Assembly: GCA_025927475.1 (NCBI GenBank)
Contig: JAICLL010000002.1
Coordinates: 1 to 64,000 of the forward strand
Origin: Pirellulales bacterium
GTDB lineage: Bacteria; Planctomycetota; Planctomycetia; Pirellulales; JAICIG01
Direction: 5' to 3'
DNA: 64,000 nucleotides
Below the pieces are notes generated by a model. It ran no database searches. It was not told the DNA's origin and saw nothing but the letters and a program-made list of their open reading frames with translations. Of the stretch, positions 6,776-54,542 are shown piece by piece (positions within the stretch are counted from its first letter, which is position 1; each line of letters begins with the position of its first letter). A program made the translations under genes and the position numbers.

Positions 6776-6824
6776 CTACTCCGCTCCGTGAATGACGCGC
6801 TACTTTCGCGGAGTGAAAAGCGAC
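6776..6824. repeat. Palindromic repeat, family R1 (copy 1 of 4)
   Basis: An imperfect inverted repeat with the right-hand core CTACTTTCGCGGAGTGAAAAG. It shares its core with copies at 12952-13003, 22328-22377 and 51444-51493. It ends on the base before the anti-sigma stop codon (read from the minus strand), between that gene and the PDZ gene. Confidence 0.8.
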
Positions 6825-11770: not shown

Positions 11771-12976
11771 ATGCAGATTTCCGAGCATAATTCGCTGGCC
11801 TGGATCGATGCGGAACTGTCGGCGCTAGCCGAGCGCGATCTGCTGCGGCGATTGATGGCCCATGAAGGCGCGCAGGGCGCGACGCTCTCGCTCGACGGGC
11901 GCGCATTTCTCAATTTCGGCTCGAATGACTACTTGGGGCTGGCGGCCGATCCGCGCCTGGCCGACGCGGCAAAACAGACGCTGGATCACGAGGGCTGCGG
12001 CAGCGGCGCCAGCCCATTGATCGTGGGACGCGCAGAGAGCCACCAGCGTCTTGAACGCCGATTAGCCGAGTTTGAACAAACCGAGGCCGCGCTCGTGTTC
12101 ACCTCGGGCTTCGCGGCCAACGTCGGCACGGTTGCCGCCCTGGTCGGATCGGGCGACGCCGTGTTCAGCGACGCCTTGAATCATGCCAGCCTGGTCGACG
12201 GCTGCCGGCTGTCACGGGCGGAAGTCCACGTCTATCCCCACGGCGATTGGCGGGCGCTCGAAACGCTGCTGCAAAAAAAGGCCGCTGCTCGCCGCCGGCT
12301 GATCGTGACCGACAGCCTGTTTAGCATGGACGGCGACCTGGCGCCGTTGGTCGAACTGAGCGAGCTGGCCCAAAAGCACGGCTGTATGTTGCTGGTCGAC
12401 GAGGCGCATGCGACGGGTGTGTTCGGCAATCAGGGCCGTGGCGCGTGCGAGTGGCTGGGCGTCGAGCGGCAGGTGGACATTCGCATCGGCACGCTCAGCA
12501 AAGCACTCGGCGCTGCGGGCGGATTTGTCTGCGGCAGCCGAGCGCTGATCGAATGGCTGGTCAACCGCGCGCGGACTTACGTGTTTTCGACCGCGTTGCC
12601 GCCGGCCATCGCCGCGGCCGCAATTGCCGCGCTGGACCTCGTGCGAGAAGAACCCCAGCGGCGCGCGCAGTTGCTGGACCGCTCGCGCCACTTGGCCGAC
12701 ACGCTGCGCGAACAGGGATGGCAGGTTGGGCCGACCGTCAGCCAGATTGTTCCGCTGGTGGTTGGCGAAGCGCGTCGAGCGCTGGAACTGTCGGGCGCGT
12801 TGGCAGAGCGAGGCATCTGGGCGCCGGCCATTCGCCCACCCAGCGTTCCCGCCGGCGCCGCGCGACTGCGCATCAGTCTCAGTTTCGCGCACGACGATGC
12901 GATGGTCGAGCGCCTAGTGAATGCGCTGAACGAAGTGCGCGGCGCCGCTCTGTCGCCTTTCGCTCCGCGCAAGTAG
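11771..12976 (+). CDS. bioF: 8-amino-7-oxononanoate synthase (BioF) or close alpha-oxoamine synthase
   Basis: A 401-residue PLP-dependent alpha-oxoamine synthase. Family motifs: FLNFGSNDYLGLAADPRL near the N-terminus, EGCGSGASPLIVGRAESHQRLE, FTSGFAANVGTVAAL, LLVDEAHATGVFGNQGRG, and the PLP lysine in GTLSKALGAAGGFVCG. BioF joins pimeloyl-ACP (or -CoA) and alanine in biotin synthesis. No other bio genes are near, so a related enzyme such as glycine C-acetyltransferase cannot be excluded. ATG 11771 gives the standard start; an upstream GTG at 11582 would add 63 residues encoded partly by repeat R2. The last residues (SPFAPRK) are encoded by repeat R1. Confidence 0.9.
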   Translation: MQISEHNSLAWIDAELSALAERDLLRRLMAHEGAQGATLSLDGRAFLNFGSNDYLGLAADPRLADAAKQTLDHEGCGSGASPLIVGRAESHQRLERRLAEFEQTEAALVFTSGFAANVGTVAALVGSGDAVFSDALNHASLVDGCRLSRAEVHVYPHGDWRALETLLQKKAAARRRLIVTDSLFSMDGDLAPLVELSELAQKHGCMLLVDEAHATGVFGNQGRGACEWLGVERQVDIRIGTLSKALGAAGGFVCGSRALIEWLVNRARTYVFSTALPPAIAAAAIAALDLVREEPQRRAQLLDRSRHLADTLREQGWQVGPTVSQIVPLVVGEARRALELSGALAERGIWAPAIRPPSVPAGAARLRISLSFAHDDAMVERLVNALNEVRGAALSPFAPRK

Positions 12977-13003
12977 CGATTCTTTCGCGGAGCGAAAGAC
13001 GAC
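12952..13003. repeat. Palindromic repeat, family R1 (copy 2), overlapping the bioF 3' end
   Basis: A near-perfect inverted repeat: CTTTCGCTCCGCG on the left pairs with CGCGGAGCGAAAG on the right around AAGTAGCGATT. The left arm encodes the last seven bioF residues and its stop codon, so the element forms the gene end. Confidence 0.88.
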
Positions 13004-13214
13004 ATTGGGTCGAGCGAGTGCGCTCAATCGCTGACGCGTCGGGGCTTCCACTTGAATGATCCGGGCAAGGTTGCCGTTCCGGGCGCAAGCATCTTGCGAT
13101 CTAATATTTTTTTGGGACCGGCCCCTTGGTGGGTGATTGTGTTTCGGGGTGGGGTTCGCTACAGTGTTCCGAATCTCCGCAACGGACGCGGGGCGCTGAG
13201 GTCACGATGGCCGA

Positions 13215-13321: not shown

Positions 13322-14641
13322 TCAGCCTGTCGCGCCGGCGGCCAGCGCCTTGACGTCTAACTGCCAGCCGTCGGGCAGCACCGCGTCTTTGGGCAACACC
13401 ACAATGCCGTCGCAGACCATGCCCTGCTCGTTGTCGGGCGTTTCGGTCACCCCCGACTCATTGCACACGCACACCCGACGTCCCACGTGGCAATTCTTGT
13501 CGATGATCGCCCCTTCGATCGTGGCGCCTTCGCCAATGCCCATCGGCGGGCGTCCGGCGGCCAGGTCGGCGGCAATTTCGGCTTGCGTCTGAAACGTATC
13601 AGCGCCCATCAACACCGAATTGCGGATCGTCACGTTTCGCCCGATCCGGCAGCGCAGCCCGATCACGCTGTTCTCGATCGTCGCTCCGCTTTCGATCAGG
13701 CAGCCGTCGGCCAGCAGGCTGTTGCGGACGGTGGCCCCTTCGATGCGCGTGGGCGGTAAAAATCGCGGATGCGAATAAATCGGCGCCTCGGCCGAGGTCA
13801 GCTCGAACGGCGGCTCGGGCTTGGCCAAATCCAGATTGGCCTCGTAAAACGATTTGATCGTGCCGATGTCTTCCCAATAACCGTCGAACAAGTGAACGTG
13901 TACCTGATGCGTGCGGATCGACGCCGGAAAGATCTCTTTGCCAAAATCGCGGTAGTCGGTTTTGCTGAGCACGTTGAGCAGTGTGTCGCGGTTGAACAAG
14001 TAAATGCCCATGCTAGCTAGCAGGTCGCGCCCGCGGCTGGGCACGCCCTGGGCCTCGATCCAGGCCGGGTCGGTGCGGAATTGCTCGACCTCGGGCAGCG
14101 TCTTGGGCTTTTCGAGAAAGCCCGCCACGCGCCCCATGCCGTCGAGCCGCATGATTCCAAGCTGCGAGGCGGCCTCGCGCGCCACCGGCAGGGCCGCAAT
14201 GGTGGCGTCTGCCCGGTTGCGGCGGTGCGTCTCGAGCATGTCGAGATAATTCATGCGATAGAGCTGGTCGCCCGAAAGAATCAGCACATACTCGACGCCC
14301 GGCTGAAGCAGGTAGCGCAGGTTTTGGCGGACCGCGTCGGCGGTGCCTTGATACCAGTTGGCGTTTTCGGGCGTTTGCTGGGCAGCCAAAATCTCGACAA
14401 AGCCGCCGTTGAAGGCATCGAAGCGGTAGGTCTGCCGAATATGCCGGTGCAGGCTCACCGAATTGAACTGCGTGAGCACATAGAGCCGGTTCAGCCCGCT
14501 GTTGATGCAGTTCGACAGCGGAATGTCGATCAGGCGGTACTTGCCCGCCAACGGCACGGCGGGCTTCGAGCGCACTTTGGTGAGCGGATGCAGCCGGGTG
14601 CCGCGGCCCCCGCCCAGCACCATGGTAATGATGTTTTTCAT
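13322..14641 (-). CDS. glgC: Glucose-1-phosphate adenylyltransferase (ADP-glucose pyrophosphorylase)
   Basis: A 439-residue protein. The N-terminal nucleotidyltransferase domain carries VLGGGRGTRLHPLTKVRSKP and AGKYRLIDIPLSNCINSG; a left-handed beta-helix C-terminus has hexapeptide repeats (SVIGLRCRIGRNVTIRNSVL). GlgC makes ADP-glucose from ATP and glucose-1-phosphate, the committed step of bacterial glycogen synthesis. The ATG at 14641 has a strong ribosome site (GGAGGGACGACC directly before it), so longer upstream starts are rejected. It is divergent from the PhnD-patatin gene, with a shared 130-bp promoter region. No other glg genes are visible. Confidence 0.95.
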   Translation of the reverse strand: MKNIITMVLGGGRGTRLHPLTKVRSKPAVPLAGKYRLIDIPLSNCINSGLNRLYVLTQFNSVSLHRHIRQTYRFDAFNGGFVEILAAQQTPENANWYQGTADAVRQNLRYLLQPGVEYVLILSGDQLYRMNYLDMLETHRRNRADATIAALPVAREAASQLGIMRLDGMGRVAGFLEKPKTLPEVEQFRTDPAWIEAQGVPSRGRDLLASMGIYLFNRDTLLNVLSKTDYRDFGKEIFPASIRTHQVHVHLFDGYWEDIGTIKSFYEANLDLAKPEPPFELTSAEAPIYSHPRFLPPTRIEGATVRNSLLADGCLIESGATIENSVIGLRCRIGRNVTIRNSVLMGADTFQTQAEIAADLAAGRPPMGIGEGATIEGAIIDKNCHVGRRVCVCNESGVTETPDNEQGMVCDGIVVLPKDAVLPDGWQLDVKALAAGATG

Positions 14642-14771
14642 GGTCGTCCCTCCGGCCAGCCCAAGAAGCTCCGCGGCGGCAAGCGCCGCGCGTGAACGAC
14701 ATTGTAATGTTCCCTGAGCGATCGGAAAGCCCGCGGCCTGACGAACTTTCAACCATCCATCTCAATCCCGT

Positions 14772-17234
14772 ATGATAACCCCCATGACCAACCTGCTTGC
14801 CTTCTATCTCTTCTGCGCGGCATGCGGCCAGCCGGGCGATGCCGAAGTGCGCGTCGGCGTGGTGGCCTTTGAAGATTCCGCCCGAACGGAGAGCGACAAT
14901 GAGCGGCTGTTTGCCGAGTTGGAGGCCGAGATCGATCGACCACCGCGGTTTCGGCTGGCGCTGGGCACCTACGGCGACGTGCTCTTTTGGCTCGACCGAG
15001 GGCTCGTCGATGTGGCGGTGCTGACGCCGGGCGTGTTGGTGCAAGCGCTGCGGTTGCGCCATGATGGCCAGCCCGCCTGCCAGTATCTCGCCAGCCGCCG
15101 CCTGCCCGCGGTGCGGGGCGGACTGCTGTCTGACGCCCAGCCCGGCTATCGCCAACATTACCATGCGGTGTGCGTGGTCGCCGAGAGCTCGTCGCTCAAG
15201 AACATCGACGACCTGCGTCGGGCGTTCGCGGCTGATCGCCTGCGGTTCGTGTTTGTCGATCCGATCTCGGCCTCCGGGCGAATCGTACCGGCAGCCGCCT
15301 TGAAAGCGATCGACATACGCCCCACGCAGGAACAATTCGAGTATAGCTATTCGCACACCAACTCGCTGCGGTCGCTGGCCGCCGACGACGGCAAACAGCG
15401 GGTGGCCTTTGTCTGGGACGGCGCGTGGACCGAGGTCGACGACCTGCCGCCGTTCCGCCGCTTGGAATTCGCCGAACTCGAACAGAGGGAAGTGCCCGCC
15501 GATGCGGTCGTCGCCCGTCGCGGTTTTCCCCATGCCGAACAGGTCGCCAAGTTGCTGGCCCAGCACCGCGATGCCGCGGGCGAGCACGATTTTGAGCGCG
15601 TCGATGATTGGCAAGATCGCTACCGTCCGCTCAGCCAGTGGGCCGGCGAACTGCGCATTCCGCTGGAAGGCGACGAGGTGCAATCGGTCTCGCTCGACGG
15701 GCTGGGACAGATGCTCTTGCACTATCTGCGCACGCGGCGAGCAAGCGAACCGCCAAGAATCGCCTTGGTTCTGTCGGGCGGCGGCGCCAAATGCGCTTAC
15801 CAGGTCGGGGCCGCCACCGCGCTGGAAGAAAAGCTGGCCGAGCTGCGCCAGGCAACCGGCGAAGACGACCTGCGCATCTCGCTGATCGCCGGCACGTCGG
15901 GCGGAGCGCTCAACGCATTGGCCATGGCGCTGGGCACATCGGCGACGCCCGGTGGCCAGGCCGAGCTGCGCCGAACCTGGCGCGGCCTCGACCAGCGCGA
16001 AATCGTCCGCCCCTCGCGGTTGGTGCGCGGCAACATGGGGCTGTGGTTCGTTTCGATCGAGTTCGCGCTGACGCTGTGGCTGGTTCGCAAGGCGGTGCAT
16101 GCGCCCGCCCGTCGCGCCTGGACGGTCATCGGTTGCATGTTCGCGCTGGCCGCGGCGCAGATTGCCGCCAGCCACGCGGTGTTCTCGCCCTGGGCCTGGC
16201 TGGGCCAGCATCACTGGCTACACCACGCCTGGCTGTGGGCCACCTTTGGCGTCGAAGGGGCGGGCTGGTGCCTGCTCGCTCTGGCCGTGGCCGCGGCAAT
16301 CGGGCAAACGCTGCTCGCACGGTCGGACAAGTCGCTCGCCTTGCCGCGCTGGGCCGCCACCTGGCTGCTCACCGTCGGCTTGCTCGGATTGCCGCTGGCG
16401 CAGTTGCTGACCATTCTTTTTTACGAACGCACGCTCTCCGACGGCGCGGGAACCGAACGGCGGCTGCTGGCCGGCTTTACCGACCTGGCCAACTTTCGGG
16501 CGAGCGAACTGGGCCAGCCGCGTTTGCGGCAAACGCCCGGCGACAGCACAACGGAGCGGCTCAAAAGCGTCAGCCGGCAGATCTTCGAGCGACATCTGTT
16601 GGCCCGCGACCTGGTGGTCACCGGATCGTGCTTGGAGCAAACCAGCGCCGATCTGCCCAGCGATCTGTATTTCTACGCGGCGGCTGCTTCTCGTGCTTCG
16701 CCGCCCGATTACGGCGAGCGCGGCGTAGCGCTGGCCGAGCGGCCCGAGATGCTGCTCGACGTGGTGCTGGGTTCGGGTTCGGTGTTTCCGGTCTTTCCTG
16801 CGCGGACCTTGGAAGATTTTCCGCGGCCGGGCGAGCGGGTCGAACTCATCGACGGCGGCTTTATTCACAACAGTCCGGTCGAGGCGGCGGTGCGGTGGGG
16901 CGCCACGCATGTGGTGTTGATCGAGGCCGATCCGCACGAGCGTTCCGAGCGGCGCAACTTTTTGCAAAACGCGACCGGGGCCTTCAACCACTTATATCAA
17001 CAGGCCCAGCAGGTCGACGCCCGCTCGCGCGAGCGCGAGCAGGTGGTGATCTTCAGCCTGCGGCCCGAGTCGCCGCATCTGTGCTTGCTCGATTTCGCCG
17101 ACAACCTGATCGACGCCGCCATTGCCAAAGGCTACCGCGAGGCCCGCGGCGAGTCGCTCTCTTTCGGCGGCCTCACCGGTCTCCGCCGCTTCCGCAAAGA
17201 GCTTGGCCAGCCGCGGTTTGTTGGTGATCGTTGA
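14772..17234 (+). CDS. PhnD-like periplasmic-binding domain fused to a membrane-interrupted patatin lipase
   Basis: An 820-residue protein of unusual build. A short hydrophobic leader (LLAFYLFCAACG) is followed by a PhnD-type substrate-binding domain (about residues 25-300: VDVAVLTPGVLV, YHAVCVVAESSSLKNIDDLR, FVDPISASGRIVPAAALKA). A patatin-like domain starts near 330: oxyanion loop LSGGGAKCAYQ, nucleophile elbow GTSGG (S about 376), and the catalytic Asp in DGGFIHNSP (about 694). Between elbow and Asp, residues about 417-553 form several hydrophobic helices. So a lipid acyl-hydrolase is split by a membrane domain and joined to a ligand-binding domain. The oxyanion loop has KC where patatins usually have RG. 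Alternative start: ATG 14784. Substrate and ligand unknown; reaction inferred from the family. Confidence 0.85.
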   Translation: MITPMTNLLAFYLFCAACGQPGDAEVRVGVVAFEDSARTESDNERLFAELEAEIDRPPRFRLALGTYGDVLFWLDRGLVDVAVLTPGVLVQALRLRHDGQPACQYLASRRLPAVRGGLLSDAQPGYRQHYHAVCVVAESSSLKNIDDLRRAFAADRLRFVFVDPISASGRIVPAAALKAIDIRPTQEQFEYSYSHTNSLRSLAADDGKQRVAFVWDGAWTEVDDLPPFRRLEFAELEQREVPADAVVARRGFPHAEQVAKLLAQHRDAAGEHDFERVDDWQDRYRPLSQWAGELRIPLEGDEVQSVSLDGLGQMLLHYLRTRRASEPPRIALVLSGGGAKCAYQVGAATALEEKLAELRQATGEDDLRISLIAGTSGGALNALAMALGTSATPGGQAELRRTWRGLDQREIVRPSRLVRGNMGLWFVSIEFALTLWLVRKAVHAPARRAWTVIGCMFALAAAQIAASHAVFSPWAWLGQHHWLHHAWLWATFGVEGAGWCLLALAVAAAIGQTLLARSDKSLALPRWAATWLLTVGLLGLPLAQLLTILFYERTLSDGAGTERRLLAGFTDLANFRASELGQPRLRQTPGDSTTERLKSVSRQIFERHLLARDLVVTGSCLEQTSADLPSDLYFYAAAASRASPPDYGERGVALAERPEMLLDVVLGSGSVFPVFPARTLEDFPRPGERVELIDGGFIHNSPVEAAVRWGATHVVLIEADPHERSERRNFLQNATGAFNHLYQQAQQVDARSREREQVVIFSLRPESPHLCLLDFADNLIDAAIAKGYREARGESLSFGGLTGLRRFRKELGQPRFVGDR

Positions 17235-17936: not shown

Positions 17937-18303
17937 TCATGAACCGCTTCCGTGCCGGACGCGCATTCCGATCTCGTCAACGACCCAAAGGCTGCCAGTC
18001 AGAACTTCGGTCGCAAAAAGCGGGATGAGTCGCGAGACGGCCTTTACCGCGGCGGGCCGGCTTTGGTCGTGTAGTCTCAACACGATGATGCCCGCGTAGT
18101 CGTGCGGCGGATATGCTAGAATGTTGGAAAAGTCGAAGGTCTTGCGTGACGACCGCGCGTCCTTCCTGTCGGCAAATCGCCGCCACGATCTCGTCCGGTT
18201 GTCCCTGCATGTGTTGATCGTAAACCGTCACGGCGTCGTGACCGTGTTGACGCAACAGCTCCGCCACCTCGTCGTGTAGGTTCTCGTCGACCTTGAATCG
18301 CAT
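17937..18303 (-). pseudogene. DUF5615 PIN-like toxin gene with a one-base frameshift
   Basis: The start (MRFKVDENLHDEVAELLRQHGHDAVTVYDQ) and the first half through GRAVVTQD are typical of DUF5615 PIN-like toxins. Near 18131-18140 the frame shifts by one base. After removing one base the reading continues as DLDFSNILAYPPHDYAGIIV and on to EIGMRVRHGSGS, with a stop at 17937-17939, which restores a normal full-length protein. Without the correction the tail is arginine-rich and unlike the family. The gene starts immediately after the intact DUF433 antitoxin gene. A true mutation would inactivate the toxin; a sequencing indel is the alternative. Confidence 0.85.
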
Positions 18304-18534
18304 TCAGGTCAGCTCCGGCACGGGCACGTAGCGATCCTGAGCCATTTCAGCCGCGTAGTGCAGCGCCGCCTGAATGTCCTCGCGCTCGATATGATAGCCG
18401 CTCATGATGGCGTCAAACGATTCGCCTGCCGCGACGTTCGCGAGGACCACCGACACCATTACCCGCGTCCCTTTAATGCAGGGCTTGCCATGACATACGC
18501 GAGGATTCACGCTGACCCGATCTTGCCAGTTCAT
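18304..18534 (-). CDS. DUF433-family antitoxin
   Basis: A 76-residue protein with the DUF433 core: RVSVNPRVCHGKPCIKGTRV, a helix-turn-helix-like middle (VMVSVVLANVAAGESFDAIM) and DIQAALHYAAEMA. The ribosome site AGGAGAATGT directly precedes the ATG at 18534. It abuts the frameshifted DUF5615 gene with no gap. DUF433/DUF5615 pairs are predicted toxin-antitoxin modules in which DUF433 is the DNA-binding antitoxin. This half is intact. Confidence 0.88.
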   Translation of the reverse strand: MNWQDRVSVNPRVCHGKPCIKGTRVMVSVVLANVAAGESFDAIMSGYHIEREDIQAALHYAAEMAQDRYVPVPELT

Positions 18535-18590
18535 ACATTCTCCTGTTGAGCGCGCCCCCGTTTGCGCCGGCCGCGACCGACGCCGCGGCA

Positions 18591-18684
18591 TCGTCGAGAA
18601 CAGCCTTTCGATTCCTCCGCTAGTTCTCTTCCATTCTAGCTGATTTGCACAATGCCGATAACCGCCTTCACGGCAGCGAAAGCG
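18591..18684. repeat. Duplicated segment D1 (copy 2)
   Basis: Partner of 17471-17560. Here the ATG of the remnant is replaced (cct instead of cat on the plus strand), so it is not a start. It lies in the 293-bp gap upstream of the DUF433 gene; the rest of that gap shows nothing else I can name. Confidence 0.72.
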
Positions 18685-18827
18685 TAGATCCAGGCCTGGC
18701 CAATGAGCTCTGACATTCGGCTCCTTTCCATCCCATTGCCAGCTCAAACGGTGCTGTGCCAGTAGACCGATTCGCCGGCGGTCGCTGCGAGGGAGCACAA
18801 AGCCGATAAACAGCAGGGACGCCCTCG

Positions 18828-20444
18828 TTACAAGGTGTTGTAGGCCCGCAGCCGGCCGGCGGTCATCTCGCGCGTGAATTTGTAGAAGTGCCAATGCGTC
18901 GCGCAGCGGCTCATGAACTGGGCAAAGCCGACGATGTCCCTGCGATGCCGTAAATTCCGCGTGAAGAAATAACTTGCATAGATCATGCCGACCGAGAGCA
19001 ATGATCCGTCACGCAGGAGCGCCCGAAACAGCGACCAGAGAAGAACGAGCGCGTATCCCAGCGTCGACACGCTCTTTCCTTCGCCCGCTTTGCGACAGAT
19101 GTCGGCGCGCCGTTGCAGATAGTCCCGCGACCGGTACACCTGGAAGTGTCGGTCCAGGTACGCCTGCGGGGAATAAAGCCGCGTGACCAGATCCCAGTAG
19201 CCGTCGCGCAATTCGCGGCGGGTCATCTGCCGTGGAACGAAATTGCAGCTCGCGTCTTCCTCCACCAGGCGGCCCTCGCGCTGGAGCCGCTCGTAGAGGG
19301 GCGTCCGCGGGATCGCTTGCAGCATTCCCACCATCGCCAGAGCGATGCCGTTTTCCTGGATGAATCGGAATTGGTCGTCGAAGATGCTCCGGTCGTCGCT
19401 GTCGAAGCCGACGATGAATCCGCCGCTGACGTCCAGCCCGGCCGCCTGAATCCGCGAGAGCTTCGCCTGCAAGGAATCGCCCCGGGCGTTCTGAAACTTC
19501 TTCGTTTCCTGCAGCGATGCCAGGCGAGGCGTCTCGATTCCGATGAAGACGCTGCGGAAGTTCGCGCGGTACATCAGTTCCAGAAGCTCGGGATCGTCGG
19601 CCAAGTCGATGCTCGCCTCGGTCGTCAGACGCAGCGGGTACCGGTGGCGCTCCATCCAGGGAACAATTTTTTCCAGCAGCGCTTTGGCCTTTTTCTTGTT
19701 GCCGATGAAATTGTCGTCGACGATGAATGCGGAGTGAAAGCCCGCCTGCCGCATGTCGTCCAGCTCTTGGAGCAGTTGGTCCGGCTGCTTGACTCGCGGC
19801 CGGCGCCCGTAAATCACGATGATGTCGCAGAATTCACATTGGAACGGGCAGCCCCGCGAATACTGCAAGGCCCCGCAGGCATAGCGGTCGGCCTTGAGCA
19901 GATCGAACCGCGGCCGGGGCACGTTGGTCATGTCGGTCGGCGCGGACTGCTCATACCGTTTCTCGGTCGGCGCCCCGCAGGCAAAGTCCCGCAGAAATGC
20001 CGGCCAGGTCGTCTCGGCCTCGCCGATGAAAGCGGCGTCGCACAGGCCGTCGAAGAAGTCCTCTTGCACCGACACGAACGGGCCGCCCACGACGGTGAAT
20101 ACATCCAGCCCCCGGAGCCGGCCCAGGATCTGCCGCATGCGCACCTTTTGGACATTCATGCCCGTGACGCCGACGATGTCGAACGTTTCCAGAAATTCCC
20201 AATCGATCTCCTCGACGTTCTCGTCGAGCACGTGGACGTGGTGGTCTCCGCAGAGCCCGGCCACGGCGGCCAACGAGCCGGGAATCATCGTGCTGCGCTT
20301 GTCGCCGGGATAGAGCGGAAGAGCAAATTCAAATCCCCAGTAGGACGGCTCAAAGCGCGGATTGATGAGGCAGATGGAAAGCGTTCTGGCGACGGGAGAC
20401 GCGACCGTCTCACACTTGACCGCGGGGTGAAGGGTTGTACTCAT
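18828..20444 (-). CDS. B12-binding-type radical SAM protein
   Basis: A 538-residue protein. An N-terminal Rossmann-like cobalamin-binding-type domain (residues about 20-160: LINPRFEPSYWGFE, PGSLAAVAGL, DIVGVTGMNVQK, VVGGPFVSVQED) precedes a radical SAM core with the cluster motif SRGCPFQCEFC near residue 198. Later come EASIDLADDPELLELMYRAN, FIGIETP and GGFIVGFDSD. The C-terminal about 150 residues resemble DUF4070, common in this class. These enzymes methylate or rearrange unactivated carbons; the substrate is unknown and no biosynthetic cluster surrounds the gene. The ATG at 20444 is preferred over one at 20483. Its last 56 bp are duplicated at 17828-17883. Confidence 0.9.
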   Translation of the reverse strand: MSTTLHPAVKCETVASPVARTLSICLINPRFEPSYWGFEFALPLYPGDKRSTMIPGSLAAVAGLCGDHHVHVLDENVEEIDWEFLETFDIVGVTGMNVQKVRMRQILGRLRGLDVFTVVGGPFVSVQEDFFDGLCDAAFIGEAETTWPAFLRDFACGAPTEKRYEQSAPTDMTNVPRPRFDLLKADRYACGALQYSRGCPFQCEFCDIIVIYGRRPRVKQPDQLLQELDDMRQAGFHSAFIVDDNFIGNKKKAKALLEKIVPWMERHRYPLRLTTEASIDLADDPELLELMYRANFRSVFIGIETPRLASLQETKKFQNARGDSLQAKLSRIQAAGLDVSGGFIVGFDSDDRSIFDDQFRFIQENGIALAMVGMLQAIPRTPLYERLQREGRLVEEDASCNFVPRQMTRRELRDGYWDLVTRLYSPQAYLDRHFQVYRSRDYLQRRADICRKAGEGKSVSTLGYALVLLWSLFRALLRDGSLLSVGMIYASYFFTRNLRHRRDIVGFAQFMSRCATHWHFYKFTREMTAGRLRAYNTL

Positions 20445-20692: not shown

Positions 20693-22240
20693 TTATTGAT
20701 CGACCCGGCGATACTCGCCGTAGTTCTCGTCGGAGAGGGCCTTGAGAAAGGCGTCAAACGGATTGGCGGGGCCGGGCAGGCCAACACCCACCCCGATGGA
20801 GTTCACCGTCACTCGGCGCGTCCGGTTCAGTTGCGTAATGACTGCCACAATTTCGTCGGGATCCACCACCTTGCCGCCGTGCGGGGCGCCATCGGTCAGA
20901 AAGAAAACCGACTCGGTGTCGTAATCGAACGCCGCTTCCAGCGCATCGTAGGATGCCGTCGAGTTGCCCAGGTCTTGCCGCTCGACAAACGCGACGGCGC
21001 GCTGCTTGTTCTCGCCCGATGCCACAACCAGTTTGCGCTGCCAGGGAACCACACGCGAATTAAACGCCAGCACGCCAAAATGAACTCCATCGGCCAGGCT
21101 GTTAATGGCGCTGGTCAACTCGCGCTTGGCCGCCACAATCCGCCCGTCGCGCAGCATGCTGCGCGAGGTATCGAGCACAAACACCACCCGCGCCGCGTAA
21201 ATGGGCATGCCGTAGTAGGCCGACATCGAGGGCGCCGGGGCGGCAGTGCGGTTGGCGGCCATCTCGGCAATGCCGGGGAAGTCGAAATCGTCTTGGTGTT
21301 GTTTCCACCATTCGGTCCAGGCCTCCGCGTCGAGCCCGAAGTGCTCACCGCTGATCTCGGTGAGGCGGCGGACTATGTCGCCCCGCACTTCGCCCTTGGC
21401 CTTGGGCAGCAGCGTCACCAGGGCGTGGACCGCTTCAACCGAGCGGATGCTGGCCATGGCTTGCACCACCGAACGCCGCACGGCGAACTGGCCTTCAAAA
21501 ATCGGCCGCTGCGAGATCTTCACCAGCGTTGCCAGGCTCGTGTCGCCCGCTTCCGTTCCCAGGGCGTCGGCCAACGAAACCACCAACCGCAGGCCGCCCT
21601 TGGGTTGCTCGACCGCCGCATCGAGTAGTTCAAACGCCCGGTCGAGCGTGCCAGCCTCTTGCGAAGCCAACGCGACTGACAGCATGGTGCCGGCCGAATT
21701 GGGCGGGGCGCCGCGCTGGATGCCTTTCTCGACGCTGTCTAGCAATGCGGTGGTAACCTCGCGCTCGTCTTTGAAGCCCAGCAGCGTCTCGTAGGCGGCT
21801 TTACGGACGTCGTCAAACTCGCTGTTCAGCCCCTGCTCGATGAGCAGGCGCGCGGCGTCGGGCGTGGGATGATCGGCCAGGCGCCGCACCGCCTGCAAGC
21901 GCACCTCGGGGTTTTTGTTTCGCATCTGCTGCACGATGCTGCGCTGCACCTGCCGGAACGCTTTTTCTTTCGCCGGATCGGCTTTGGCCTTAGGCGTCTT
22001 GGGCCTGGCGTTGCGTCCGCGAGCTGCCTTGCGTTTGCCGGCGGCCGGAGTTTCTTCAGCGGATTGGCCATCGGCGGGCTCGCTGGCTGAGGCATCGTCC
22101 ACCGCGTCGGCCGCCCGTGGTGCGGCGCCCCGCTGTTTGGCCACCCGCGCCGTTCGTTGCCGATCGGCCGACCAGAGTGTGGTCGAAGCCAGCAGCACCG
22201 CAAACAGCACGGCCGACCGAAACAGTGAAACGCGTGGCAC
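20693..22240 (-). CDS. Exported HEAT-repeat and von Willebrand A domain protein (paralogue 1)
   Basis: A 515-residue protein starting at GTG 22240 with ribosome site AGGGAGTCAGTC. A signal peptide (LFAVLLASTTLWSA) and a basic low-complexity linker precede HEAT-like repeats (residues about 90-290: RSIVQQMRNKNPEVRLQAVRR, EVRGDIVRRLTEISG). A VWA domain occupies about 345-510, with an intact MIDAS (DTSRSM and FLTDGAP). The downstream paralogue (22525-24069) has the same plan, so the pair arose by tandem duplication. Likely role: metal-dependent adhesion or assembly at the envelope. No associated MoxR ATPase is present. Confidence 0.85.
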   Translation of the reverse strand: MPRVSLFRSAVLFAVLLASTTLWSADRQRTARVAKQRGAAPRAADAVDDASASEPADGQSAEETPAAGKRKAARGRNARPKTPKAKADPAKEKAFRQVQRSIVQQMRNKNPEVRLQAVRRLADHPTPDAARLLIEQGLNSEFDDVRKAAYETLLGFKDEREVTTALLDSVEKGIQRGAPPNSAGTMLSVALASQEAGTLDRAFELLDAAVEQPKGGLRLVVSLADALGTEAGDTSLATLVKISQRPIFEGQFAVRRSVVQAMASIRSVEAVHALVTLLPKAKGEVRGDIVRRLTEISGEHFGLDAEAWTEWWKQHQDDFDFPGIAEMAANRTAAPAPSMSAYYGMPIYAARVVFVLDTSRSMLRDGRIVAAKRELTSAINSLADGVHFGVLAFNSRVVPWQRKLVVASGENKQRAVAFVERQDLGNSTASYDALEAAFDYDTESVFFLTDGAPHGGKVVDPDEIVAVITQLNRTRRVTVNSIGVGVGLPGPANPFDAFLKALSDENYGEYRRVDQ

Positions 22241-22327: not shown

Positions 22328-22377
22328 GTCGCTTTTCGCTCCGCGGAAGCATCGCTACTTTCGCGGAGCGAAAGGCG
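22328..22377. repeat. Palindromic repeat, family R1 (copy 3)
   Basis: CTTTTCGCTCCGCGG on the left pairs with the right arm TTTCGCGGAGCGAAAG around AAGCATCGCTAC. It lies between the two HEAT/VWA paralogues. Confidence 0.86.
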
Positions 22378-22524: not shown

Positions 22525-24069
22525 CTACTGATCGACCCGCGTGTATTCGCCGTGATTGCTCTCTGCCAAGACGCGCAGGAAGGTGTCGAAGGGGTTCGCC
22601 AGCCCGGGCAGCCCGACACCGATGCCGATCGAGTTGATCGTCAGCCGCCGTGTGCGGTTCATCTCGGTGAGCAGAGCGATGATTTGCAGCGGATCGTTGA
22701 TGGCGCCGCCGGCCGGCTCCCCGTCGGTCAAGAAATAGATCGACTCGGTGTCGAAATCAAACGCCGCATTCAGGGCGTCGTACGATGCCGTGGCCGGTCC
22801 CAAACCGCGCACCAGCACCCAGGCCACCGCTTCTGCTTTGTTCTCTTCAGTCGCCGGCAGCAACTCTTTCGACCAGGGCGTGACGGCAATGTCGAATGCC
22901 AGCACGCTGAAACGCACGCTGCGGGGCAGCGACAAGATGGTGCTGGTCAGCTCGCGCTTGGCGGCTTCGATCCGCCCGCCGCTCATGCTGGCCGAAGTGT
23001 CGATCACAAACACAATCCGCTCGGCGCAGAGCGGCAGGCCGTAATAGGTCGAGCTCGATTTTTTGACGGCCTGCGACATGCTGGGCACGTGCTTGCCCGA
23101 CAGCGGATAGGCAAATCCTTCTTGATTGCCCTTCCACCATTTGGTCCAAGCTTCGTCGTCGAGGCCATGCGACTCACCGGTGACCGCGGTGAGGTGGCGA
23201 ACGATATCGCCGCGGACTTCGCCCGTCACGGTGGGGAGCAGCTTGACCAAGGCGTCGACGGCGGCGGCCAGCGGCACGCGGCACATGGCCGCCACCACCG
23301 CCCGCCGCAGCGCGAAGCGTTCGTTGAACACGGGCCGGTTCGACATTTTGACGAGCGTGCCTAGGCTCGTCTCGTCGGCCATCACGCCGAGCTGATCGGC
23401 CAGGCCCAGCACGAGCGGAGCGCCGGCGGGTTGCCGACTGGCTTGATCGAACAGTTCGAGCGCGCGGCTTTCGGTTAGCGAATCGTCGGAGGCCAGCGCC
23501 ACCGCCAGCAGGCTGCCGGCGGTGTCGACCGAGTCGCCGCGTTTGAACGATTTCTCGATGGCCGCCAGCACATAATCGGCCACCGGTCGCTGATCGCTCA
23601 GCTTAATGAGTGTCGAATAGGCGGCCACGCGAACATCGTCCAGCGAGCTGCCCAGCCCGTGCTGAACGAGCAGCCGAGCGGCCTCGGCCGTCGGGTATTG
23701 TTCAAGTTGGCGCACCGCCGCGAGACGCGTGTCGGGCTTTTTGCTTTTCATTTGCCGCAGCAGCGTGAGCTGCACCTGCCGCGGCGGAGCGAGCGGCTCT
23801 TTCGGCGCTGACCTGGCCGATTTCTTCGCCGACCGGGTGCGCGTGCGCTTGGCTTCCACCGAGGGCGGATCGGCCGCTGACTCGTCGGCCGCCGTTGCCG
23901 CGGACGGTGGCTCCTTGGTTGGTGGATCATCGTCCGCCGCGCTGGCCGGCAGGCCGATACCGCACCAGATCAAGCTGACGAGCAGAGCGACAAGCGACGC
24001 ATCGTAGCCATCACGCTCCGCGTGACGTAAGCCCGTGGCCGAAAGGCAGGCAGGAGCGGTTCGAGTCAT
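22525..24069 (-). CDS. Exported HEAT-repeat and von Willebrand A domain protein (paralogue 2)
   Basis: A 514-residue protein closely parallel to its neighbour: hydrophobic export segment (SLVALLVSLIWCGIGLPASA), acidic/basic linker, HEAT-like repeats (VQLTLLRQMKSKKPDTRLAA, EVRGDIVRHLTAVTG) and a VWA domain with an intact MIDAS (DTSASMSGGRI, FLTDGEPAGG). The C-termini of both end in the same pattern (GEY, then RRVDQ or TRVDQ). The ATG at 24069 follows a GGGAGACTG ribosome site. About 280 bp with an R1 repeat separate the two genes. Substrate or partner unknown. Confidence 0.86.
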   Translation of the reverse strand: MTRTAPACLSATGLRHAERDGYDASLVALLVSLIWCGIGLPASAADDDPPTKEPPSAATAADESAADPPSVEAKRTRTRSAKKSARSAPKEPLAPPRQVQLTLLRQMKSKKPDTRLAAVRQLEQYPTAEAARLLVQHGLGSSLDDVRVAAYSTLIKLSDQRPVADYVLAAIEKSFKRGDSVDTAGSLLAVALASDDSLTESRALELFDQASRQPAGAPLVLGLADQLGVMADETSLGTLVKMSNRPVFNERFALRRAVVAAMCRVPLAAAVDALVKLLPTVTGEVRGDIVRHLTAVTGESHGLDDEAWTKWWKGNQEGFAYPLSGKHVPSMSQAVKKSSSTYYGLPLCAERIVFVIDTSASMSGGRIEAAKRELTSTILSLPRSVRFSVLAFDIAVTPWSKELLPATEENKAEAVAWVLVRGLGPATASYDALNAAFDFDTESIYFLTDGEPAGGAINDPLQIIALLTEMNRTRRLTINSIGIGVGLPGLANPFDTFLRVLAESNHGEYTRVDQ

Positions 24070-49774: not shown

Positions 49775-50805
49775 CCGCGTCACGAAGAGTGTTTGCACCA
49801 CTGATGCCGTCTGCCGTTGTCGAGCGCCCCTCGGGTTATTCCCGCCGCGGATGGCTCGAAGTGATCGCGGCAGGTTCTCTCTTGGGGCGACATCTGACGT
49901 CTGACGATCATCTCGCAGCCGCGGCGGAGCGGAATGGCGCTTCCGATGCCGGACTGGCTGACCCGAGCAGCGGGGCCATCGATGCGCATGTGCATGTCTG
50001 GACGCCCGACACGCGGCGGTATCCGCTGGCCGCCGGCTTCCGCCGCGAGGAGATGAAGCCGCCCAGCTTCACGCCCGAAGAGCTGTTCGAGCACGCGCGG
50101 CCCTGCGGCATCGCCCGAGTGGTGCTCATCCAAATGAGTTTTTACGGCTTCGACAATTCGTACATGCTCGACACCATGCGGCGGTTCGCTGGCGTGTTTT
50201 CGGGCGTAGCGGTCATCGACGACTCGGCGCCGGATCCCGCCGCCGAAATGCGGCGATTGGCCCGGCAGGGCGTGCGCGGGTTTCGCATTTATCCGCGCAA
50301 CATGCCAATCGGTCGCTGGCTCGACGGGCCGGGCATGCAGGCCATGTGGCGCTGCGGCGGCGAAGAAGGGCTGGCTATGTGCCACCTGATTAACCCCGAC
50401 GCACTGGATGCCGTCGACCGCGCTTGCGCGAAGTTTCCCGACACGCCGGTGGTGATCGACCATCTGGCGCGAATCGGCATCGACGGCCGCATCCACGAAG
50501 TCGATGTCGAACGGCTCTGCCGTCTGGCCCGCCATCGCCAAACGCACGTCAAAGTCTCGGCCTTTTACGCGCTGGGCAAGAAGCAGGCGCCGTATCTCGA
50601 TCTGGCGCCGCTGGTCCGCCGCTTGCTCGATGCGTTTGGTCCCGAGCGATTGATGTGGGCCACCGACTGTCCCTATCAGGTGCAGGCCGGGCACACCTAT
50701 GCCGACTCGATCGCGCTGGTGCGCGAGCGGCTCGATTTCCTCTCGCCCGGAGATCGAGAGTGGCTGCTGCGCAAGACGGCGGAGAAGGTGTTCTTCTCTT
50801 CGTAG
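49771..50805 (+). CDS. Amidohydrolase-2 family protein, probably Tat-exported
   Basis: A 344-residue TIM-barrel hydrolase. An N-terminal twin-arginine segment (SRRGWLEVIAAGSLLG) suggests Tat export. IDAHVHVW is the first metal site (HxH); VVIDHLARIG and MWATDCPYQ supply further conserved residues of the family that includes L-fuconolactonase. Most members are lactonases, decarboxylases or hydrolases acting on sugar lactones; the substrate is unknown here. The start overlaps a possible leader peptide by ATGA. Confidence 0.87.
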   Translation: MTASRRVFAPLMPSAVVERPSGYSRRGWLEVIAAGSLLGRHLTSDDHLAAAAERNGASDAGLADPSSGAIDAHVHVWTPDTRRYPLAAGFRREEMKPPSFTPEELFEHARPCGIARVVLIQMSFYGFDNSYMLDTMRRFAGVFSGVAVIDDSAPDPAAEMRRLARQGVRGFRIYPRNMPIGRWLDGPGMQAMWRCGGEEGLAMCHLINPDALDAVDRACAKFPDTPVVIDHLARIGIDGRIHEVDVERLCRLARHRQTHVKVSAFYALGKKQAPYLDLAPLVRRLLDAFGPERLMWATDCPYQVQAGHTYADSIALVRERLDFLSPGDREWLLRKTAEKVFFSS

Positions 50806-50926
50806 GACGAATTGGTTTAGTTCCCTACGAGGCCCAATTGCGGTTGATTGCCGAGCCAGCGAACATGGCTTAAGATAATGGTTAGACGTACCCGAGCCGA
50901 AAACAACGTCAAGCACGAGGTCTCCT

Positions 50927-51157
50927 ATGACTCGAATCGTCGTCAATGAAGCTCTTCGCGGGCTCTTGCCCGATCTGACCCGACCTCTTGAGCTCTTCGA
51001 CGAGACCGGGCGGATGTTGGGGCATTTCGTGCCCGCGGCCAATGCCGTCGAATTGCGCGGCGAGCCGCAGTTCTCCGAGGAGGAGCTTCGGCAACTCGAA
51101 AATGAGCCTTTTTATACGACTGCGGAAGTTCTCGCCTATTTGGAAAGTCTTCCATGA
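50927..51157 (+). CDS. Putative antitoxin of the RelE-type pair
   Basis: A 76-residue protein (TRIVVNEALRGLLPDLTRPL start, FSEEELRQLENEPFYTTAEV end). It overlaps the downstream toxin by ATGA. Its acidic C-terminal helix fits an antitoxin interface. No named DNA-binding family is recognised, so the assignment rests on context. Confidence 0.75.
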   Translation: MTRIVVNEALRGLLPDLTRPLELFDETGRMLGHFVPAANAVELRGEPQFSEEELRQLENEPFYTTAEVLAYLESLP

Positions 51158-51408
51158 CTACCGTCCATTGGAACCGGACGGCAAGGAATGCGCTTGCGTC
51201 GGCGTGGAATAATGCCGATGCCGCAGGACGACGCGAAATCAGCAATGCTGCGCGAGAGATCGATCGTCGGCTGCAGGGCGATCCAGAGCAAGAAGGGGAA
51301 TCTCGCCCTAACGGCTGCCGCGTCCTCTTTGTACGGCCGCTCGCCGCGCTCTATCGCGTTGTGCCCCAACCGTCGGCAGTTCGCGTTTTATCGGTTTGGC
51401 GATATTGA
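51154..51408 (+). CDS. RelE/ParE-like toxin (intact)
   Basis: An 84-residue protein with a compact RelE/ParE-like pattern: helices in RNALASAWNNADAAGRREIS followed by strands RVLFVRPLAALYRVV and AVRVLSVWRY. No frame disruption. It overlaps the upstream antitoxin gene by ATGA. One of two apparently intact toxins in the window. RelE toxins usually cut mRNA on the ribosome, while ParE forms target gyrase; which applies is unknown. Confidence 0.78.
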   Translation: MTTVHWNRTARNALASAWNNADAAGRREISNAAREIDRRLQGDPEQEGESRPNGCRVLFVRPLAALYRVVPQPSAVRVLSVWRY

Positions 51409-51443
51409 GCGCTGGTCCTAATTGCGGCGGGGCATCGCCAATG

Positions 51444-51493
51444 CCGTCTTCGCTCCGCGAAAGTAGTGTTTCTTTCGCGGACCGAAAGACGAC
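51444..51493. repeat. Palindromic repeat, family R1 (copy 4)
   Basis: CTTCGCTCCGCGAAAG pairs with CTTTCGCGGACCGAAAG around TAGTGTTT. It lies between the RelE-type toxin and dapL. The preceding ggggcatcgcca (51429-51440) matches the edge of repeat R2. Confidence 0.86.
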
Positions 51494-51538
51494 AAAACCA
51501 ACCACCACCCACCAACACCAGTCACTAGCCACCACCCC

Positions 51539-52771
51539 ATGCCCGACCCTTACTTTCAAAAACTCTTCGCTGACCGCATTGGCGGCGTTAACTACGGCAA
51601 AGGCACCGAGATCTATAAGTTCGAGAAGATCAAACGTGCCAAGCGCAAAGCCCTGGCCGAGCATCCGCAGCGCAAGCTGATCGATTTTGGCATTGGCGAA
51701 AACGACGAGCCGGCTGATGAAGCGGTGCGGGCCGTTATGGCCACCGAGATCCATCAGCCCGAAAACCGCGGCTACGCCGACAACGGCATCGCGGCGTTCA
51801 AGGAAGCCGCGGCCCGGTTCATGGAGCGGCGGTTTGGCGTGCAGCTCGATCCGGCGAGGGAAGTGAACCACTCGATCGGCTCGAAGCCTGCCCTGGCCAT
51901 GCTGCCCGCCGCCTTCATCAATCCCGGCGACGTGACGCTGATGACCGTGCCGGGCTATCCGGTGGCGGGCACGCACACCAAATACTACGGCGGCGAAGTC
52001 TACCGGCTGCCGTTGCTCGCCGAGAACGACTTCTTTCCCGATCTCGACTCGATTCCCGCCGACATCCGCCGCCGCGCGAAGCTGCTGGTGCTGAATTATC
52101 CCAACAGCCCCACGGGCCGGCTGGCCACGCGCGAGTTTTACCAGCGGGTGATCGACTTCGCCCAGCAAAACGACGTGGTGGTGGTGCAAGACGCCGCCCA
52201 CGTTCTGCTCACCTACGACGGAGAGCCGCTCAGCTTCTTGCAGGCGCCGGGAGCCAGGGAGGTGGGCGTCGAGGTGCATTCGCTCTCGAAGGGTTTTCAT
52301 ATGATCGGCTGGCGGATGGGTTGGGTGTGCGGGCATGAGCGCATCGTGCAGGCTTTTGCCGACGTCAAAGACAACAGCGACTCGGGGCAATTCATCGCCA
52401 TTCAAAAGGCGGCGGCCGCGGCGCTCGACAACGACGCCATTCCGCATCGCGTGCGCGAAAAGTACCGTCGCCGGCTCGAAAAGCTGGTGGCGGTGCTCGG
52501 TCGGTGCGGCTTCGATTGCCGAATGCCCGGCGGGACGTATTTTCTCTACACGCGTTCGCCCCGGGGGCTTGCCGACGGGCAGGTCTTCGCGACGGCTGAG
52601 GCGGCCAGTCAATATCTGATCACGGAGCATTCGATCTGCACGGTGCCGTGGGACGACGCGGGTTCGTTCTTGCGTTTCAGCGTCACCTATGAAGCCGCCG
52701 ACGAAGCCGCCGAAGACGAGCTGATGCGCCAGACCGAACAGCGGCTGAAGCAGATTCGGCTTACCTTCTGA
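51539..52771 (+). CDS. dapL: LL-diaminopimelate aminotransferase
   Basis: A 410-residue class I/II PLP aminotransferase with YFQKLFADRIGGVNYGKGT at the start, LIDFGIGENDEP, NRGYADNGIAAF, LVLNYPNSPTGRLA and the PLP lysine in HSLSKGFHMIGWRMGW. DapL converts tetrahydrodipicolinate to LL-diaminopimelate in one step, for lysine and peptidoglycan. It agrees with a planctomycete carrying the aminotransferase DAP route. No other dap genes are near. Confidence 0.94.
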   Translation: MPDPYFQKLFADRIGGVNYGKGTEIYKFEKIKRAKRKALAEHPQRKLIDFGIGENDEPADEAVRAVMATEIHQPENRGYADNGIAAFKEAAARFMERRFGVQLDPAREVNHSIGSKPALAMLPAAFINPGDVTLMTVPGYPVAGTHTKYYGGEVYRLPLLAENDFFPDLDSIPADIRRRAKLLVLNYPNSPTGRLATREFYQRVIDFAQQNDVVVVQDAAHVLLTYDGEPLSFLQAPGAREVGVEVHSLSKGFHMIGWRMGWVCGHERIVQAFADVKDNSDSGQFIAIQKAAAAALDNDAIPHRVREKYRRRLEKLVAVLGRCGFDCRMPGGTYFLYTRSPRGLADGQVFATAEAASQYLITEHSICTVPWDDAGSFLRFSVTYEAADEAAEDELMRQTEQRLKQIRLTF

Positions 52772-52832
52772 GACGAACATCATCTGCCTTTGTTTGAGTC
52801 GTTGCGACCGCTGAAACGAGTCGGGCGCAAAT

Positions 52833-52872
52833 GGGAAGGGGATATGGGGATGAAGAAGAGATAGGGGGATGG
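52833..52872 (+). repeat. G-rich low-complexity repeat (family R6), upstream copy
   Basis: gggaaggggatatgggg then atgaagaagag and atagggggatgg. Similar copies are at 53213-53252 and, inverted, 53308-53350. It contains the start codon of the truncated GxxExxY frame. Confidence 0.75.
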
Positions 52873-53225
52873 CGTTCGAACTAGCCCAGCGCGGTATCCG
52901 GTTCGAGATCGAGAAGAAAATCATGATCTACTGCTCTTGCCATCCGATGGGTTTGCACCGGCTCGACATGCTCGTCGCCGATCGGGTAATTCTTGAAACA
53001 AAAGCAGTCAATGACTTTTGCACGTACGACTATGCCCGACTCCGGTCGTATCTCAAAGCCGCCGGCTGTCGGGTCGGGCTGCTTGTGAACTTCAACAAAG
53101 AGAAAGCCGATTTCCGCCGCGTCGAATTCAAAGGCGATTTGCAGACGCAGAAAAGAACCGCCGACTCGGCAACGGAATATCGAGGCGATCACGATGAATG
53201 GCCGACGGACGAGGGAAGGGGATGA
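52869..53225 (+). pseudogene. N-terminally truncated GxxExxY-family gene
   Basis: The 118-residue frame aligns only with the later part of GxxExxY proteins: FELAQRGIRFEIEKK, HRLDMLVADRVILETKAV and LRSYLKAAGCRVGLLVNFN (the conserved nuclease-like strand pattern). The N-terminal helix with the GxxExxY motif is missing, and the sequence upstream is repeat R6, which provides the start ATG. Frame ends in another R6 copy. The protein family is of unknown function with a predicted nuclease-like fold. Likely a remnant. Confidence 0.78.
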
Positions 53226-53350
53226 GGAGATGACAACGAGATAGAGAGATGGTGACGATGTTCACCTCCCGCTCTCACGTTCACATGCCGCAGCCCAATC
53301 AAAACCATCCCCCGATCTCTTCCGTATCCCCCTATCCCCTTCCCAATGGT
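53213..53350. repeat. G-rich repeat R6: direct copy (53213-53252) and inverted copy (53308-53350)
   Basis: The first copy reads gggaaggggatgaggagatg and contains the GxxExxY-frame stop; the second is a reverse complement (atcccccgatctcttcc, then tatccccttccc) running over the nagA ATG. With the upstream copy they bracket the fragment. Confidence 0.72.
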
Positions 53351-54542
53351 CCATGCAATTTTCCGCGGCCGCTTGATTTTAGCCGATCGCGTCTTGGACG
53401 ACGGCGAGATCCACGTTAGCGATGGCCGGATCGCGGCGGTCGGCAAACGGGGAGAGTTGGCGCCGCCGCCCGAGGGCGCGGCGGTCGTGGATGCCGGCAA
53501 CGGCTATCTCGGTCCCGGCTATGTCGACCTCCACGTACACGGCGGGGCGGGAGCCGATTTCATGGACGGCAGCCATGAGGCGTTTGCCACCGTGCTGGCC
53601 GCGCACGCCCGGCACGGCACCACCAGCATCGTGCCCACGACCACCGCCGCGGGGCACGAGCAGATTCTGGCGATGCTCGCGTGCTGCGGGCATTTTCGCG
53701 ACGGCAATTCCCCCGGCGCGCGTGTGTTGGGCGCGCACCTCTACGGTCCCTATTTTCGCTACGAAGCGCGGGGCTGCCACCCCGCCGCGCCGGTGCGTCC
53801 GCCGGTAGCCGACGAATATCGGCAATATCTCGAATCGGGCGTGGTGCTCACCGCCTCGATCGCTCCCGAACTGCCCGGCGCCGAAAGCTTCACCCGCGAC
53901 TGCCGCGACCGCGGCATCTTCATGAACGCCGGGCATACGCACGCCACCTTCGATCAGATGGCCGAGGCCGTGCGGTGGGGCGTGCGGCATGTCGATCATC
54001 TTTATTGCGCCATGTCTGACAAAAGTAAGTTGCGGCAGCAGCAGCCCTATCCGATGCGCGGCGGCGTGCTCGAGGCCACGCTGTATTTCGATGAGCTGAC
54101 GACCGAAGTGATCGCCGACGGCAAGCATCTTTCGGCCGACCTGCTGCTGCTGGCCCTGAAGCTCAAGGGCTGCGACCGGCTGGCGCTGGTGACCGACTGC
54201 AACCGCGCGCTCGACATGCCCGAGGGAGAGTACCTTTTTGGACCGCTCGCAGGCGGCGAGCCTTTCGTGCATGAAGACGGCGTGGGCAAGATGCCGGGCG
54301 GAGCGGCGCTGGCCTCCAGTGTGCGCGGCATGGACCATATGGTGCGGACCTTTGTCAGAATGACCGGCAGGCCGGTCTGGGAAGCCGTGCGAATGGCCTC
54401 GCTGACGCCCGCGGCCATCGTGGGCCACGAGCGCGAGATCGGCAGCATCGCGGTCGGCAAGCGGGCCGATCTACTGGTGCTTGACGATGATTTGCGGGTA
54501 CAACAGGTGTTTGTGCATGGAAAATGCGTTTTTCTCCTTTGA
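53346..54542 (+). CDS. nagA: N-acetylglucosamine-6-phosphate deacetylase
   Basis: A 398-residue amidohydrolase. VDLHVHGGAGADFMDG holds the metal-binding HxH; HARHGTTSIVPTT, NAGHTHATFDQM, HLYCAMS and LVTDCNRAL are conserved NagA segments. It releases acetate from GlcNAc-6-P in amino-sugar recycling. The expected HPPF loop is LYGPYFRYEARGCH here, a modest deviation, so specificity for another acylated sugar is possible. Its 3' end overlaps tmk by 26 bp. Confidence 0.9.
   Translation: MVHAIFRGRLILADRVLDDGEIHVSDGRIAAVGKRGELAPPPEGAAVVDAGNGYLGPGYVDLHVHGGAGADFMDGSHEAFATVLAAHARHGTTSIVPTTTAAGHEQILAMLACCGHFRDGNSPGARVLGAHLYGPYFRYEARGCHPAAPVRPPVADEYRQYLESGVVLTASIAPELPGAESFTRDCRDRGIFMNAGHTHATFDQMAEAVRWGVRHVDHLYCAMSDKSKLRQQQPYPMRGGVLEATLYFDELTTEVIADGKHLSADLLLLALKLKGCDRLALVTDCNRALDMPEGEYLFGPLAGGEPFVHEDGVGKMPGGAALASSVRGMDHMVRTFVRMTGRPVWEAVRMASLTPAAIVGHEREIGSIAVGKRADLLVLDDDLRVQQVFVHGKCVFLL

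Follow-up and report, generated by a model that had tools for sequence, protein, structure and literature searches.

Known outputs of flytrap binding domains include transporters, kinases and cyclases. PhnD, PtxB and HtxB (PF12974) have a two-lobed fold, with an S-x-S...H oxyanion site and pocket tyrosines, and are separate components of ABC transporters. The STS-H motif is characteristic of phosphite binders, and the pockets of solved PhnD-type structures close on the ligand and bury it (PMC5700983). AioX and ArrX belong to a family that serves oxyanion sensing rather than transport, and five residues of AioX, Tyr88, Tyr131, Ser161, Ser163 and His192, are common to PhnD around the phosphate (PMC5908839). 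The AioX subfamily has Cys106 in addition. AioX and ArrX are each a periplasmic protein in its own right, with a sensor kinase as the means of action.

Patatins (PF01734), such as CapE, CapV and potato patatin, contain a GGG oxyanion loop, a GxSGG motif with the catalytic serine and a DGG motif with the aspartate, in one fold made up of two halves. In PlpD, a patatin is tied to a membrane module in the diderm envelope, an Omp85 β-barrel of the outer membrane that lies outside the patatin (PMC11116518).

The window, meaning the entire 64,000-nucleotide stretch of DNA analyzed here, contains a gene (14772..17234, on the + strand, as are all of its parts described below) for a protein of 820 residues. 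From the reading frame, Pfam and homologues, it consists of a signal segment, a PhnD-type binding domain, and a patatin that is split by four membrane helices. The three patatin motifs and the two-half fold are present. In comparison with the known patatins, however, the protein has about 185 additional residues, including four membrane helices, between the Ser and the Asp, a probable export signal, an N-terminal binding domain, and the sequence GGGxKC in the oxyanion loop. The binding domain shares the fold, the S-x-S...H site and the tyrosines of PhnD, PtxB and HtxB, but it is covalently fused to an enzyme. While ArrX and AioX act through a separate kinase, the proposed lipase output here is located in the same chain; and in contrast to PlpD, the membrane helices belong to the inner membrane and lie inside the patatin, with a binding domain in addition.

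In the literature searched, we found neither a relevant description of a patatin–PhnD fusion nor a lipase output fused to a flytrap domain. The preliminary description of this locus had called it a novel design. The fusion of a membrane lipase to a binding domain indeed appears to be undescribed in that literature, whereas membrane insertion alone is not unique to it, as the genome encodes another patatin with such helices (L095, see below). The new element is the combination with the flytrap domain, and this is a new patatin architecture.

Domain organization and the patatin fold

The open reading frame is uninterrupted, with zero internal stops. In Pfam, residues 28–264 match Phosphonate-bd (PF12974; 5.2e-21, 75.6 bits against a cut-off of 27), and residues 332–706 match Patatin (PF01734; 1.3e-17, 65.1 bits against a curated cut-off of 27.7). 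The latter match covers positions 1–190 of the 191 in the profile, with about 185 extra residues inserted. The frame and the Pfam matches agree with the preliminary description, which had placed the binding domain, GTSGG, hydrophobic helices and DGG in one chain, and its motif positions are exact: GGGAKC at residues 336–341, GTSGG at 374–378 (with Ser376) and DGG at 694–696 (with Asp694). A frame error or a chimaeric artefact was rejected, as about 30 distinct homologues have the same architecture. A chance arrangement is excluded since, among 30 members scanned with Pfam, Patatin is matched in all and Phosphonate-bd in 28.

The first half of the patatin (residues about 330–404; 15759..15983) and the second half (residues about 613–790; 16608..17141) are defined by Pfam and the structure model. 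The AlphaFold model of residues 300–820, covering the patatin and the helices, was obtained with a 29-sequence alignment and has a pLDDT of 87.7 and a pTM of 0.88. All 19 PDB matches with E < 0.001 are patatin-type structures (CapE, CapV, potato patatin, VipD). The alignments to CapE, CapV and patatin have about 490–530 columns, for targets of mostly about 300–360 residues, so the alignment runs without a break across the inserted block. The packing of the two halves, which the split patatin of the preliminary description presupposes, is thus borne out by this model, with one patatin fold at that pTM and matches that span both halves. The TM-scores of CapE and CapV over the target are moderate, 0.5–0.6, with sequence identity of 10–13%. 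The full-chain model (10-sequence alignment) has a pLDDT of 78.4 and a pTM of 0.72, and the geometry between its domains is unconstrained. Its PDB matches are PhnD1, PtxB, ArrX and other PhnD-type structures (TM-score up to 0.78 over the target), GpxB (9lf9; TM-score 0.68), and the patatin CapE.

Ser376 in the nucleophile elbow (GTSGG, 15891..15905), Asp694 (DGG, 16851..16859) and the three glycines 336–338 of the oxyanion loop (GGGAKC, 15777..15794) are invariant in the family alignment (30/30). Ser376 and Asp694 would form the dyad of a putative acyl hydrolase. In one clade (L063, L068–L072 and L082), the sequence around the catalytic Asp is DGSFAHR in place of DGGFAHN, with the Asp kept. 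Residue 341 is Cys in 28 of the 30 members and Ala in the remaining two, both of them gammaproteobacterial forms. The preliminary description had contrasted GGGAKCAY with GGGxRG. The departure is real, with Cys at the last Gly, but minor: Lys or Arg is normal at position 340, and the other patatins compared here have Ala, Gly, Ser or Thr at the equivalent of Cys341. Because of this variation, Cys341 is a mark of the family; judged from the alignment, GGGAKC is a family hallmark and a mild change, with no break of the site.

The N-terminal hydrophobic segment (residues 1–21; 14772..14834) is a probable export signal, based on hydropathy and the N-termini of homologues. In the window protein it is devoid of basic residues; the homologues start with clearer, typical export segments. 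The inserted membrane block (residues about 416–550; 16017..16421) was recognized by hydropathy, loop charges and models, and hydropathy and models locate its four helices at about residues 416–441, 445–468, 481–518 and 526–550. In the family, the mean number of Lys and Arg residues is 4.1 for loop 1–2 and 4.0 for loop 3–4, versus 1.2 for loop 2–3. Given the signal segment, the positive-inside rule and four crossings, the binding domain and both patatin halves would be located outside the cytoplasm. In the window protein, loops 1–2 and 3–4 are positively charged, and loop 2–3 is neutral and bears a His-rich segment (480-HHWLHHAWLW). A reading of its HxxHH sequence as a di-iron site of the desaturase type was rejected, as there is a single motif only, which L063, L064, L068–L072, L080, L084 and L085 either lack or have in a changed form.

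In the second patatin of the source genome (L095; G000:C221, about 50684–53956; L095:685–3957), membrane helices likewise separate the serine motif from DGG. This patatin differs from the window protein in its serine motif, TVSGGG, and has no recognized binding domain and no visible signal segment. Pfam recognizes a stretch of only about 50 residues in this patatin.

The PhnD-type domain and its predicted pocket

In Foldseek, the two-lobed binding domain (residues 28–264; 14853..15563) matches PhnD1, PtxB and ArrX at TM-scores of 0.75–0.78 over the target, and has their fold. Of the solved chains, ArrX is the closest in sequence. The predicted oxyanion pocket, placed by alignments with the published structures (PMC5908839, PMC5700983), is made up of Tyr67 (14970..14972; Tyr88 of AioX), Tyr130 (15159..15161; Tyr131 of AioX), the S-x-S turn of Ser166-Ala167-Ser168 (15267..15275; Ser161 and Ser163 of AioX, and STS of PhnD) and His195 (15354..15356; His192 of AioX and His158 of Prochlorococcus PhnD). 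These are the five residues that AioX and PhnD have in common, and each is retained in about 25–29 of the 30 aligned members. With respect to the STS-H motif, Ser166, Ser168 and His195 are present, while the middle Thr of PhnD is Ala here and Ala, Val or Leu across the fusion family. This position is also not Thr in ArrX, which has a hydrophobic residue, and in AioX.

There are exceptions in a few members. The pocket is lost in both gammaproteobacterial forms (L086 and L087), and L084 has two changes in it, Y67E and H195Q. The catalytic dyad is retained in all three, which suggests that ligand binding is dispensable in some members.

The score for the PhnD equivalog of phosphonate ABC transporters (NCBIfam TIGR03431) is 44.1 bits, far from its cut-off of 261.1. 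No PF12974 domain other than the fused one was found in the source genome (88.7% complete), so a separate PhnD-type binding protein was not seen there. As the pocket residues are retained and the nearest solved chain belongs to the oxyanion-sensing branch, our best guess for the ligand, from sequence comparison, is a tetrahedral oxyanion, either free or as a small ester.

Distribution and genomic neighborhood of the family

Among 397 genomes of the order, 8, including the source genome, have a homologue that spans most or all of the protein; in a sample of 392 genomes from across the phylum, 3 have one at profile level. When 84,980 genomes were scanned for the motif, 40 loci were recovered, with about 32 clear members (a few truncated by contig ends, and L083 disrupted) and the two diverged gammaproteobacterial forms. 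Homologues with the same domain order, on which the preliminary description had staked its proposal, thus number about 30 distinct proteins in several phyla. From the titles of their records, members belong to Planctomycetota, Verrucomicrobia (Verrucomicrobiota), Eremiobacterota (Vulcanimicrobiota), Deltaproteobacteria (Myxococcota in the NCBI reading), Acidobacteria (Acidobacteriota), UBP16 or unassigned bacteria, and Gammaproteobacteria. Almost all of them are from metagenome-assembled genomes (MAGs), and the list of phyla is provisional because the titles of MAGs can be wrong. The gammaproteobacterial relatives are longer (about 1,020–1,030 residues), with more putative membrane helices, an intact dyad and a degenerate N-terminal binding domain, which by eye looks like a worn-down PhnD-type domain.

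No match to the fusion protein was found in 58 near relatives, nor in a single-sequence scan of genome contigs with the window protein. These blanks reflect limits of the method together with true rarity, as wider and profile searches found the family. A plasmid-borne origin has no match among 72,556 plasmids. The family tree, from a quick search, is deep, with mixed phyla, patchy occurrence and unsure placement of long branches. A gene that is old and rare and has undergone loss or transfer would be expected to show such a pattern. As judged by these comparisons, the patatin–PhnD fusion is a real, old and rare protein family.

The gene is preceded by a divergent glgC-type gene. Downstream, on the opposite strand, is a DUF433/DUF5615 (PIN-like) pair (17977–18894, −), likely of the toxin–antitoxin type. 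No gene neighbor conserved across the clades of the family was found, and none that indicates phosphate metabolism or an operon partner. The seven loci of one pirellulacean clade have, directly upstream and on the same strand, a gene for an Lnb_N-domain membrane protein (L077:6784–7917, with equivalents in L065, L067, L073, L075, L076 and L078). Lnb is a lipoprotein N-acyltransferase (PMC12345273), and this neighbor fits lipid work outside the membrane, in that clade only.

An open frame of 733 residues (14013–16214, −) runs antisense to the fusion gene and into the glgC-type gene. It has counterparts opposite other family members, and is most likely a shadow of high-GC coding sequence. Elsewhere in the window, the 15-bp core TTTCGCTCCGCGAAA recurs at 12951–13004, 22330–22377 and 51448–51487 as inverted pairs and at 6804–6818 as a single copy (7 matches, against 0.4 expected). 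This element is a small interspersed palindromic repeat. Two similar, adjoining HEAT-repeat and VWA-domain proteins (20693–22240 and 22525–24069, −) are probably a tandem duplication.

Possible functions of the fusion protein

The anatomy of the protein, with its single chain, part folds, packed patatin halves, catalytic dyad, pocket and family-wide domain order, is well supported. As the same design recurs in several other phyla, it is probably a lipase for which a small ion on the outside of the cell membrane acts as a switch or a guide. We give an even chance to the reading that it is a patatin-type acyl hydrolase of the inner membrane, facing the periplasm and gated by a phosphate-like ligand through its PhnD/ArrX-like domain. 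The enzyme would be similar to a phospholipase A or lysophospholipase, with the Ser376–Asp694 dyad, and the candidate ligands of the Venus-flytrap domain are phosphate, phosphonate, arsenate and a small phosphate ester. After export of the chain, the binding domain and the first patatin half would remain outside, the four helices would traverse the membrane out-in-out-in-out, and the second half would return outside and complete the fold beside the surface of the bilayer. The helices may anchor the patatin on the lipid, or feed lipid to it. Closure of the flytrap on the ligand would alter its contact with the lipase and turn it on or off, for example in lipid turnover tuned to phosphate supply.

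Alternatively, the binding domain could hold the phosphate headgroup of a lipid, or a glycerophosphate product, and position or capture it for the patatin. The existence of glycerol-phosphate-binding proteins with the PhnD fold (GpxB, 9lf9; PMC12718374) and the near-constant presence of the binding domain with the enzyme (28/30) are consistent with such substrate presentation. However, a phosphate linked to a lipid would have to fit into a pocket that closes and buries its ligand (PMC5700983), some members keep the dyad after loss of the pocket, and ArrX, the closest relative in sequence, has free oxyanions as its ligands. The conserved pocket and the kinship with ArrX favor sensing, and we consider substrate presentation unlikely.

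The enzyme might instead be a periplasmic transacylase, which moves an acyl group from phospholipid to another lipid or to a lipoprotein acceptor, with the binding domain as a regulator or a dock for the acceptor. From the periplasmic side of the inner membrane, phospholipid acyl donors would be within reach, and the Lnb_N protein directly precedes the gene at those seven loci. This neighbor is limited to the one clade, however, being absent at the window and in other clades, and nothing in the active site separates a hydrolase from a transferase, so we regard this function as quite doubtful.

Should the protein be a constitutive membrane patatin, the binding domain would now serve only as a structural or protein-docking module. 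The degenerate pockets of L086 and L087 and the altered pocket of L084 agree with this, but nearly all other members, in whichever phylum, retain the five pocket residues, which makes it improbable. A role as an anti-phage effector resembling the CBASS patatins is scarcely credible, and a defence system was rejected: CapE and CapV are the best structural matches of the catalytic domain and there are weak PADLOC effector matches, but the NCBIfam scores are far under their cut-offs (CBASS_lipase, 21.6 bits against 200), no defence partner such as a CD-NTase was recognized beside the window gene, and an export segment, membrane helices and a domain for binding a small ion are all part of the protein.

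A ligand-gated, extracytoplasmic lipase is the most economical reading of the mechanism. More tentatively, the protein may be a one-component receptor, in which an oxyanion outside the cell, such as phosphate, directly gates a membrane-embedded phospholipase through the fused flytrap. If so, the signal would pass without a kinase, a second messenger or a step of gene regulation, and this would be a new kind of output for a bacterial receptor. The family is in addition an example of how a globular hydrolase accommodates a membrane block of four helices that lies between the two residues of its dyad, and a clear target for structure determination. If the gating is real, a single protein could convert the availability of phosphate-type ions into turnover of membrane lipids in planctomycetes, where the biology of the envelope is still debated.
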